From Bradyrhizobium sp. U87765 SZCCT0048 (GTDB lineage: Bacteria > Pseudomonadota > Alphaproteobacteria > Rhizobiales > Xanthobacteraceae), in assembly GCF_018131225.1 (NCBI RefSeq), contig NZ_JAFCMM010000002.1:558001-622000 (forward strand): 64,000 nucleotides of DNA, written 5' to 3'. The notes beneath the pieces were generated by a model, which did no database searches, was not told the origin of the DNA, and saw only the letters and a program-made list of their open reading frames with translations. Within the stretch, counting starts at the first letter, position 1. Every line of letters begins with the position of its first letter. Below are positions 36,105-39,786 of this stretch, in pieces. A program made the translations under genes and the position numbers.

Positions 36105-36890
36105 TCAGGGCACCGCGACAGGGAACGCGAGCGTGGCGTTGTAGAGATCGCTGTCGGCAAGTTGCCGCAGTCTGGCCGGCTTCACCTCGTGGTCGATCGC
36201 GAGCAGGTGCGGGCCGGCCTTGACCAGCGGGATCGCGACGATGCCCGTGACGTCGCTGCGGAATTTCGGAATGTCGTTCTCGGCCATCGCGGTGACGCCA
36301 TCGCCGCGCTCGACCAGAACGCCGGCGAGCGGCCGGCCACGGAACAGCACCTTGACGCGCAGCATCTGCCCGGGTGCCGCCGCCGCCGGATCAGACAGCG
36401 GCACCAGCTCGAGCTCGTGGCCGAGCACTTTGCTCCACGGCGCATCGCGGCCGGTGATCGCCTTGGCGAACTTCACCGACCACATGCCCTTGCGCGCGTC
36501 CGGATACATCAGCTTGCTGCTGTTGCGGTAGCTGCCGTCGGCGGTCTGCACCCAGAAGCCGTTGTCGTAGCGCGCCGCCAGCAGTTCGGCCCCGCCGGTA
36601 TCCGGCGCAGTGAGCACGAAGGTGTCGTCGACGACCGCGGGCGCCAGCTTGCCGATCAGCGAGGTCTTGCCGTCACGCGTGATCGCCTCGATCTCCAGCA
36701 CCTTGTCGGCCAGCGGCGGCGGCCGGTCGCCGGGATGGCCGTAATTGACCACGACACGCGCGCCGGCGCCGTCCCCGGTGCGGGACAGCCAGAGGTCATG
36801 GGCCTCGGCGGCCGGCGCCGCGACGATGCAGGCGGCAATGGCGGCGAGCGACAGGAAACGCACCGTCGTCTTCATGTCATGCGTGTTCAT
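36105..36890 (-). CDS. DUF4198 exported protein, probable nickel-uptake accessory (NikK-like)
   Basis: 261 aa from ATG 36890, which overlaps the TonB-receptor stop by ATGA; ATG 36875 (MKTTVRF) would give a shorter signal peptide. The signal peptide ends AAEAHDLWLSR, so the mature protein starts with an N-terminal histidine near the cleavage site, a known metal-binding style of this family. DUF4198 proteins are found with nickel and cobalt transporters. Together with the NikR operator upstream, a nickel-related periplasmic role is likely, although no ECF transporter is present in this window. Confidence 0.82.
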   Translation of the reverse strand: MNTHDMKTTVRFLSLAAIAACIVAAPAAEAHDLWLSRTGDGAGARVVVNYGHPGDRPPPLADKVLEIEAITRDGKTSLIGKLAPAVVDDTFVLTAPDTGGAELLAARYDNGFWVQTADGSYRNSSKLMYPDARKGMWSVKFAKAITGRDAPWSKVLGHELELVPLSDPAAAAPGQMLRVKVLFRGRPLAGVLVERGDGVTAMAENDIPKFRSDVTGIVAIPLVKAGPHLLAIDHEVKPARLRQLADSDLYNATLAFPVAVP

Positions 36891-39130
36891 TTCACGACCA
36901 TTTTGGTTGTGGGGAGCGCCATGGCCGCAGGGACAGGCAGGCGATAGCTCAGGCCCGCGAGCAGCGTGAGCCGCGCCTGAGGGCTGGTGACGATATCGGC
37001 GGACGACGCCGTGACCGGATCACCGAGATTGATCGCGATCTCGCTGGTGCGGTCGCCCGGATACCATGTCGCCTGGGTGAACGCGGTCCAGCCCTCGGGC
37101 CAGCCATAGGCCAGCCGCCCGGTCACCCGCGAGTACGGCGAGGTCGTGAGCTGGCCATCCTGGGTCAGCTTCTTGCGGCCGACAAAGGTGACGTAGGCCG
37201 AGCCGAACAGGCGCTGCGCATTCCACGTCGCGACGTCGAAATCGACGCCGACATTGGCGACATAGTCAGGCACGTTGGGGACATAGAACGACGGCGCGCT
37301 GTCGAGCAGCCGCGCGGTGACCTCGCCATAGTTCGCGAACAGCGCGAGGCTGCGGTCGGGGGCCTTCACCAGCAGCAGGCGGGCGTCGAGATCGAAGCCG
37401 TCGCGGCGGGCATGGCCGAGAAACGACACCGGCAACCCCGGCGCCTGCTGGAATGATTCATTCTCCGAGAACGTGCTCCACGCGTCGACCTGGAACGAGA
37501 AACGATCGAAGCGCAGCTGCGCACCGACCTCCTTGCTCTCGATCTTGAACGGCTTGATCCCGGGATTGCCGATCACTTCCAGGGCGGCGTCGATGCTGCG
37601 GAAGCCCTGCCCGTAATTGGCGTAGAGTTCGAGCCACGACAGCGGCGTGATCGACACGCCGGCCTTGGGGCTCAGCACGCCCGGCGACAGCGTCTGCGAA
37701 TTCGCCGGCGTCAGATTGTCCTTGAGGTCATAGACAAACCGGTCGTAGCGGCCGCCGCCGGTGAGCTTCAGCCATTCGAGCGGTTTGACCTGCAGCTGGG
37801 CGAAGCCGGCGAGACTGGTCTGGTCGATGCCGAGGTTCGCCGTCGGATTGACCAGCGCGCGGGCGACCGTGCTGCCCTGGAAGGCGTCGATGCTGTCGGT
37901 GCGCCAGCTGCCACCGACGAGAAGCTGCACCGGCAATACATCGCCGACGGCGCCGGTCCACACCTTGCGAACCGTACCGCCCGCGGTGACGCGATCGTCC
38001 TGCTGCCAGCGCTGGCCGCCGCCGAAATCGGCGTAGCGGTTCGACAGGCTGTGGTTGACATAGAGCACGCCGGACAGCTCCTGGTCGGGCGCGCCGGCGC
38101 TGTAGTTGGCGACGAGGTTTTCATAGTATCGGTTGCCGCCGTCAGTGGCGTTGACGGCGGTGCGCGGCGACAGTGTCCCAGCGAGCACCGCATCGCGGCT
38201 GATGTAACCGGGGGCGCCGAAGGTGCTGCCGTAGGCCTGCAGGTTCACCGACAGCTGGCCGTCGGTGCCGACGCGGGTCGTCACCGTATTGAAGGCGTTG
38301 TAGCGGTCGACGCCGCTGTTATCGCGGCTGCCGTCGGTGTGGTAGCCCTCCCAGGCGATGTAGGGATCGACCGCCTTGCCCTGGCTGCTGTAGGTGATCA
38401 GCCCCCGCCCGGTGCCGAACGAGCCGCCGGAGGCCGTCACGCTCGCGACCGGCTCGGAGCGTTTGGTGACGATATTGACGGAGCCACCGAGACTGGAATC
38501 GCCGTACTCGACCGAGAACGGCCCGCGGATGATGTCGACGCGCTGGATGGCCTCGGGAATGAGGATGTTGAGGTCGGCATAGTTCGGTGTGTGCAGCGAC
38601 GACACCTGGTTGATCGGCACACCATCGATGAAATAGGCGATATCGCGGCCATGCTCGGCCTCGGTGTAGCCGCGCATGGCAATGCCGTAGCCGAGCGCGC
38701 CCTGACCGAAATTGGAGATGTTGACGCCGGGCAGCGACCTGAAGAGATCGCCGTAGGTGGCGATCGGGCTGCGGCTGACCCAGGCCGCGTCGAGCGTAGT
38801 GCTCGCCGCCGGCAGCGCCGATACCGCCGTCGACAGGTCGTTGCGGCGCGGCCCCTGCGCGGCGCCGGGCCCGCCCGTCGTGACGGCGGCCGGCACGAGA
38901 CGCGGCGGCTGGACCGCGCGAGGCGCGGTCGCCTGACGCTGCGCGGCGGCGCGTCGGTCGGCGGAGCGGCGCTTTGCCACCACTGTCGGCGCCGTCACGG
39001 TGACCGGCGCGAGCTGTCGCGCCTCGTTCTGCGGCACCGTCGTCTGCGCCGACGCCGGCGGCACGGCCATCGCGGCGCCGATCAGAAATCCCGAAACGGC
39101 CGCTGTCGTCCGGCCTCCACGCACTGTCAT
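36887..39130 (-). CDS. TonB-dependent outer-membrane receptor, probably for nickel
   Basis: 747 aa from ATG 39130, giving a signal peptide that ends PPASAQ; the frame extends 48 residues further upstream but across the NikR operator region. After a Pro/Ala/Arg-rich stretch containing LAPVTVTAP (TonB-box-like) there is the plug domain: YGDLFRSLPGVNISNFGQGALGYGIAMRGY, IAYFIDGVPINQVSS, IQRVDIIRGPFSVEYGDSSLGGSVNIVTKRS. The barrel runs to the end and finishes RLTLLAGLSYRLPVP. Such receptors take up scarce metal chelates at the expense of TonB energy. The exact NikR operator in front of it points to nickel. Confidence 0.93.
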   Translation of the reverse strand: MTVRGGRTTAAVSGFLIGAAMAVPPASAQTTVPQNEARQLAPVTVTAPTVVAKRRSADRRAAAQRQATAPRAVQPPRLVPAAVTTGGPGAAQGPRRNDLSTAVSALPAASTTLDAAWVSRSPIATYGDLFRSLPGVNISNFGQGALGYGIAMRGYTEAEHGRDIAYFIDGVPINQVSSLHTPNYADLNILIPEAIQRVDIIRGPFSVEYGDSSLGGSVNIVTKRSEPVASVTASGGSFGTGRGLITYSSQGKAVDPYIAWEGYHTDGSRDNSGVDRYNAFNTVTTRVGTDGQLSVNLQAYGSTFGAPGYISRDAVLAGTLSPRTAVNATDGGNRYYENLVANYSAGAPDQELSGVLYVNHSLSNRYADFGGGQRWQQDDRVTAGGTVRKVWTGAVGDVLPVQLLVGGSWRTDSIDAFQGSTVARALVNPTANLGIDQTSLAGFAQLQVKPLEWLKLTGGGRYDRFVYDLKDNLTPANSQTLSPGVLSPKAGVSITPLSWLELYANYGQGFRSIDAALEVIGNPGIKPFKIESKEVGAQLRFDRFSFQVDAWSTFSENESFQQAPGLPVSFLGHARRDGFDLDARLLLVKAPDRSLALFANYGEVTARLLDSAPSFYVPNVPDYVANVGVDFDVATWNAQRLFGSAYVTFVGRKKLTQDGQLTTSPYSRVTGRLAYGWPEGWTAFTQATWYPGDRTSEIAINLGDPVTASSADIVTSPQARLTLLAGLSYRLPVPAAMALPTTKMVVK

Positions 39131-39278
39131 GCCCGCACAGGGCCGCGCAGATATGCCTCCCGCGGGAGAAACACCTCCTGCAAGCCCCACCCCTCTCTGG
39201 AACGGACCGCGTTTTCGTCGCACAGTCGCGACCGCGCCCCGCTCGAATGACTCCGGCGCAGCGACGTTACCCACCCCG

Positions 39279-39306
39279 GTATGACGTTACAAGAAAAACG
39301 TCATAC
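39279..39306. promoter_or_regulatory. NikR operator, GTATGA-N16-TCATAC
   Basis: An exact match to the E. coli NikR consensus: GTATGA at 39279-39284, 16 bases, TCATAC at 39301-39306. The two halves extend to an 8-bp palindrome (GTATGACG and CGTCATAC). It lies in the divergent region, 24 bases before nikR and about 150 before the TonB receptor, so it could control both. This sets the two divergent genes in a nickel regulon. Confidence 0.9.
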
Positions 39307-39330
39307 CCATTCCCCGATCGTGGATCCCCG

Positions 39331-39786
39331 ATGCAACGCACGACCATCACTCTCGATGACGACCTGCTGAGCGAAATCGACGCGCTGGTGCAATCGCGCG
39401 GCTACCAGAACCGCTCCGAAGCGATCCGCGACCTCGCGCGCGCCGGCCTGCAGCAGGCGCGCCAGGACAGCAGCGAGGGCGACTGCGTCGCGGCGCTGGT
39501 CTACGTCTACGACCACGCCGCGCGCGACCTGTCGCGCAAGCTGGTGCAGAACTTCCACGGCCACCACGACATGGCGCTGGCCACCATGCACGTGCACATC
39601 GACCATGACAGCTGCCTGGAGATCGCGGCACTGCGCGGCACGAGCGCCGAGGTGCAGCATTTCGCCGAACACGTCATCGCCGAGCGCGGCGTCCGCTACG
39701 GCCGCGTCGTGATGATCCCGACCGGCGAGAGCCAGCCCGCCAGGCCGGCGAAGACGAAGAAACGACCGCCGCACCACCATGGCTGA
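39331..39786 (+). CDS. nikR: Nickel-responsive regulator NikR
   Basis: 151 aa from ATG 39331. N-terminal ribbon-helix-helix (MQRTTITLDDDLLSEIDAL...RSEAIRDLARAGL) binds the operator. The ACT-like C-terminal domain keeps all four high-affinity nickel ligands at the same numbers as E. coli: His76, His87, His89 (in MHVHIDHDSC) and Cys95. With nickel bound NikR usually represses uptake genes. The C-terminal tail is rich in His (HHHG), plausibly extra metal binding. Divergent from the TonB receptor; the only NikR box I see is in front of it. Confidence 0.96.
   Translation: MQRTTITLDDDLLSEIDALVQSRGYQNRSEAIRDLARAGLQQARQDSSEGDCVAALVYVYDHAARDLSRKLVQNFHGHHDMALATMHVHIDHDSCLEIAALRGTSAEVQHFAEHVIAERGVRYGRVVMIPTGESQPARPAKTKKRPPHHHG

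Follow-up and report, generated by a model that had tools for sequence, protein, structure and literature searches.

Introduction

Helicobacter provides established examples of nickel receptors repressed by NikR. The TonB-dependent receptors listed for nickel comprise FecA3, FrpB4, CntO, Bll6948, Daro_3944, Rgel01002199, and NikH (PMC11247825), and in the zinc receptor ZnuD the metal is held by the plug-apical His100 (PMC4557270). On the periplasmic side, the DUF4198 protein of Ideonella sakaiensis uses its N-terminal His and His18 to bind Ni2+ with a Kd of 18 nM; the same 2025 paper describes the DUF4198 family as having TonB receptors and NikR_C regulators for neighbours (PMC12537917). A 2009 survey had left orphan NikK proteins, encoded without NikMQO, unplaced, their neighbourhoods giving no functional clue (PMC2667541).

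Here we analyse a locus in a 64,000-nucleotide stretch of Bradyrhizobium sp. U87765 SZCCT0048 (contig NZ_JAFCMM010000002.1, positions 558,001 to 622,000; hereafter the window). The locus very probably encodes a module, repressed by NikR, that acquires nickel at the outer membrane and in the periplasm. The genes present, the sequence of the operator, the overlapping stop and start codons, the conservation, the fold, and the ligand residues were observed directly; from these we infer repression, transport, substrate, and hand-off. A preliminary description had proposed such a module, with NikR regulation and a nickel-handling DUF4198 protein, and this reading is now backed by conservation, a structure match, and the literature.

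Results

NikR and its predicted operator

The locus contains the following features.

36105-36890, minus strand: predicted DUF4198 (NikK-type) periplasmic nickel-binding protein, 261 aa (PF10670, 91 bits)
36887-36890, minus strand: ATGA overlap of the receptor stop with the DUF4198 start, by direct reading
36887-39130, minus strand: TonB-dependent outer-membrane receptor, 747 aa, plug and beta-barrel (PF07715 and PF00593)
38585-38659, minus strand: plug segment with His160 (EHGRD) and His180 (SSLHTPNY), a proposed nickel contact based on conservation
39279-39306, unstranded: predicted NikR operator, exact GTATGA-N16-TCATAC match, GTATGACGTTACAAGAAAAACGTCATAC
39331-39786, plus strand: nikR, nickel-responsive ribbon-helix-helix repressor, 151 aa (TIGR02793 and PF08753)

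The nikR product scored 200 bits against TIGR02793 (cut-off 175) and combines a ribbon-helix-helix domain with a NikR_C domain carrying the ligands His76, His87, His89, and Cys95. Its alignment with E. coli NikR (1q5v; E = 7e-43) is gap-free across residues 1-131, and R3, T5, T7, H76, H87, H89, and C95 are all retained, confirming the four ligands named in the preliminary description. R3, T5, and T7 are the base contacts of E. coli NikR. The genome encodes a single NikR. Its C-terminal end reads PPHHHG, and a Rhodoplanes NikR (L078 5012-5584, the same locus as L113) bears a long His-rich tail, HRHGHDHGHAH.

The exact operator previously noted between nikR and the divergent TonB receptor gene was borne out, and direct reading showed that its arms are in reality 10 bp long and inverted (GTATGACGTT / AACGTCATAC). 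It is the sole match in the window with fewer than three mismatches to GTATGA-N16-TCATAC, and the 7.76 Mb genome holds no other exact site. Sites with at most two mismatches number 30 genome-wide, not far above the 20 obtained with a control pattern. Among 151 related genomes, the exact motif occurs in 29, versus one for the reversed control pattern. On a matrix of related operators, which has this very site among its members, the operator reached 36.6 bits and the window runner-up 8.0. The segment 39279-39306 is a predicted NikR site, exact in sequence. The single genome site with one mismatch (L002) was rejected; although it lies between genes, it scores just 10.2 bits, and its neighbour genes have no visible nickel link.

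One operator faces both directions, and a search for a sigma-70 consensus promoter near it found none, as might be expected if the operator autoregulated nikR only and the receptor were adjacent by chance. However, operators beside TonB receptors recur across many genera in varied gene orders, including three loci with no nikR nearby (L052, L053, L057), which makes a chance neighbour extremely improbable. The receptor and DUF4198 genes are very probably switched off by NikR when nickel is plentiful.

Coupling of the receptor and DUF4198 genes

With plug and TonB barrel domains and an upstream NikR site, the receptor has the makeup of a NikR-regulated TonB-dependent receptor. A longer product starting from GTG at 39274 is mechanically possible; ATG at 39130 gives a signal-peptide-like start. 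Its orthologues in Hyphomicrobiales, 49-68% identical, are likewise paired with DUF4198.

Scanning a DUF4198 alignment against genome contigs yielded 18 loci in Rhodoplanes, other Hyphomicrobiales, and Methylobacterium/Methylorubrum, four of them apparently on the same contigs as relatives already in the set. A receptor gene lies directly upstream of DUF4198 in 12 of the 18, and the two genes overlap by ATGA in 11 of these 12 and by GTGA in the other. The earlier proposal that the pair is translated together is accordingly upheld at the level of the overlap, and the conserved stop/start arrangement supports translational coupling. Most of these DUF4198 loci have an upstream operator-like site with 0-2 mismatches. 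nikR adjoins the pair in L113, L114, L117, and L124, a urease alpha gene (identified by eye from sequence) occupies the far side of the pair in L130, and HupE lies upstream of the operator in L121. In Methylorubrum L118, L122, and L125, a DUF4198 gene follows an operator-like site and lacks an immediately upstream receptor gene.

The exact operators of relatives, fetched with their flanks, in many cases adjoin nikR, TonB receptors, NiCoT, or HupE; a few lie in surroundings where no nickel gene was recognised. The operator precedes NiCoT and then the receptor in L059 and L060; in L052 and L053 it precedes the receptor and then a weak NicO-like protein. These gene orders support nickel as the substrate. 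Running counter to the main reading, one receptor relative (L077) has an operator and no adjacent DUF4198. A phylum-wide operator search returned, outside the family, mostly sites without recognised nickel genes; the exceptions were an operator beside DUF4198 (L153) and operators beside nikR (L164-L166).

DUF4198 might alternatively buffer or scavenge nickel in the periplasm, protecting the envelope or retaining the metal, instead of delivering it to a permease. Orphan NikK genes, with no NikMQO, are indeed known (PMC2667541), and the receptorless arrangement of L118 and L125 would suit such a role. Nevertheless, the overlap with an uptake receptor gene and the presence of DUF4198 relatives inside ECF nickel importers, as in L055, where NikR, a CbiM family protein, and DUF4198 occur together, both point to uptake; a pure buffer is unlikely.

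The DUF4198 protein

The genome has one DUF4198 protein. Read by eye, its apparent signal peptide ends in AEA and is followed by HDLW, so the mature protein should begin with His. This residue (His31, mature His1) and His52, the equivalent of His18, are invariant across 17 DUF4198 sequences. The PF10670 domain, predicted secretion, a histidine at the predicted mature N-terminus, and the His18 equivalent together place the protein in the DUF4198/NikK family. Its top match among solved structures by sequence is the nickel-bound crystal structure 9gcb (E = 1e-10), and its AlphaFold model (pLDDT 86.8) matches the fold of 9gcb with E = 8.5e-16 and 26% identity in the fold alignment.

Other DUF4198 structures (Zcp) contain Zn, Co, or Cu, and further proteins of the family have links to iron, so family membership alone leaves the metal unfixed, and the nickel assignment also draws on the NikR context. 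NikR might then sense nickel while the receptor-DUF4198 pair moves mainly cobalt, zinc, or iron, a reading to which the Zcp crystals and the response of DUF4198 genes elsewhere to iron limitation or zur mutation lend some weight. Against it, the nearest solved structure binds nickel, the genes nearby in relatives encode NiCoT, HupE, and urease, and the genome has a separate ZnuD-like receptor for zinc. We therefore regard another main metal as very unlikely; the combined evidence supports a nickel-handling, NikK-type protein.

A conserved histidine pair in the receptor plug

Of the 35 receptor sequences aligned, some of which duplicate one locus, 34 carry both His160 and His180. The pair occurs in every NikR-linked receptor examined, spanning two subfamilies that are about 25% identical; the second of these, found beside NikR sites, shares 23-26% identity with the window receptor. 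The lone exception, the receptor at L080 6754-9063, shares 34% identity with the window receptor; it has neither histidine, and no NikR operator was found within the 17 kb of that locus. Among the 14 other receptors of the genome, the pair is absent from all ten whose plugs could be aligned, the remaining four aligning too poorly. PqqU/YncD and CirA likewise have no equivalents of His160/His180 in a profile alignment. The genome's own ZnuD-like receptor (L137, G000:C1:2259938-2260249) matches 4rdr with E = 1e-35 and has its Asp-His in a comparable loop, where the alignment is loose. The predicted structure of the window receptor (mean pLDDT 60.9) was too poor for use.

We propose that His160 and His180 form a nickel contact, since the conserved pair suggests that the receptor touches the metal directly. 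This bears on the form in which nickel arrives. Under the same regulation, the substrate could be a Ni-metallophore instead of free nickel, as for CntO with pseudopaline, with DUF4198 stripping or carrying the chelate; it would be a variant of the main reading, which allows either form of nickel. CntO is among the known nickel receptors, and solved structures name it a metal-pseudopaline receptor. Moreover, coordination at the nickel site of 9gcb is completed by malonate and water, so that a chelate could bind. Conversely, a non-systematic reading of the ORFs at about 30-46 kb revealed no genes for metallophore synthesis, and the two plug histidines favour direct metal contact. A metallophore substrate is less likely than not, yet a sizeable possibility.

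Candidate inner-membrane permeases and the nickel pathway

The statement that DUF4198 stands alone without an inner-membrane transporter holds at the locus, as does the accompanying option of a distant permease; for the genome as a whole it does not, because two candidate inner-membrane nickel permeases are encoded elsewhere. These are NiCoT, on another contig (L009), and HupE/UreJ, which shares its contig with the locus and belongs to a urease cluster about 155 kb away (L011). DUF4198 thus need not act without a permease. Relatives of this NikK-type protein are found in two settings, together with an ECF permease (L055) or as the partner of a TonB receptor. No PF01891 match was found in the genome, which therefore offers no CbiM/NikM, the membrane component of a NikKMLQO ECF importer, and a search for NiFe-hydrogenase showed it to be absent. 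The NicO protein at C1:2857715 appears RcnA-like and was put aside as a probable efflux protein. Within the urease cluster, an Rfam RF02514 (5' ureB sRNA) match of 129.5 bits runs antisense to ureC (L011 8336-8624, plus strand).

The wider search for a permease and for other NikR boxes, suggested in the preliminary description, thus returned NiCoT and HupE/UreJ and no further exact box. The best matrix scores at L009, L010, and L011 were -3.5, -0.8, and 2.2, versus 36.6 for the operator, and no NikR box was found at any of them. A two-mismatch site in L011 was rejected as a NikR box, being located inside a transport ATPase gene, and a cobalamin riboswitch at NiCoT was dismissed with no Rfam match. 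Because neither candidate permease has a nearby box, NikR control seemingly stops at the outer-membrane and periplasmic step, with no visible coordination with the inner membrane. In this genome, the NikR regulon apparently comprises nikR and the receptor-DUF4198 pair alone.

Discussion

Proposed mechanism

When cytoplasmic nickel is sufficient, Ni-NikR would bind the single operator between the divergent units and repress the receptor-DUF4198 genes; at the same operator (39279-39306), nikR itself is probably repressed too. When nickel is scarce, the receptor would be made, and nickel, either unbound or in a small chelate, would cross the outer membrane using TonB energy. The coupled DUF4198 protein, exported with its N-terminal His, may keep Ni2+ in a two-histidine periplasmic site and pass it to a permease encoded elsewhere, most likely HupE/UreJ of the urease cluster or NiCoT. 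Urease would be the main user of the acquired nickel.

More tentatively, and with a little less than even confidence, we suggest that a plug His160/His180 metal site common to NikR-linked TonB receptors marks nickel receptors, that an ECF-type NikK has in this lineage been recruited as the dedicated, co-translated periplasmic acceptor of such a receptor, and that NikR consequently governs the outer-membrane and periplasmic step alone, the permeases lying outside its regulon. The pair is a candidate signature for nickel receptors among TonB receptors lacking a known substrate, and the scheme offers a concrete role for "orphan" NikK proteins.

Comparison with known systems

The locus is a well-preserved case of a largely described kind of nickel uptake system, uptake itself being deduced here. 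It is less new than the preliminary description assumed, a 2025 paper having already described both the DUF4198/TonB/NikR neighbourhood and a DUF4198 protein that binds nickel (PMC12537917). The present analysis adds two small points, the NikR control apparently confined to the outer-membrane and periplasmic step and the plug histidine pair.

The closest described protein, the Ideonella sakaiensis DUF4198 (9gcb, PMC12537917), shares the fold, the N-terminal His, the His18 equivalent, and the TonB receptor and NikR_C neighbours of its family. It is 26% identical in the fold alignment; here, by contrast, the NikR operator is pinpointed, and the DUF4198 and receptor genes overlap. As in H. pylori FrpB4/FecA3, Bll6948, and others (PMC11247825), a TonB receptor appears under NikR with a presumed role in nickel uptake, whereas pairing with DUF4198 sets the window receptor apart. 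Its subfamily is about 25% identical to the other NikR-site receptors of relatives.

The module resembles the NikKMLQO ECF-type importer in its DUF4198 component, NikK, the name that the PDB gives to 9gcb. Unlike that importer, it belongs to a genome without NikM/CbiM and has an outer-membrane receptor beside NikK instead. With E. coli nikR-nikABCDE it shares the NikR residues and the operator half-sites; the target there is an ABC importer, and here it is an outer-membrane/periplasmic pair. Finally, the logic of a metal receptor with a plug-apical histidine recalls ZnuD (His100, PMC4557270), but ZnuD is zinc-specific, and the window receptor belongs to a different TonB receptor subfamily with its own plug signature, HGRD...HTPNY.
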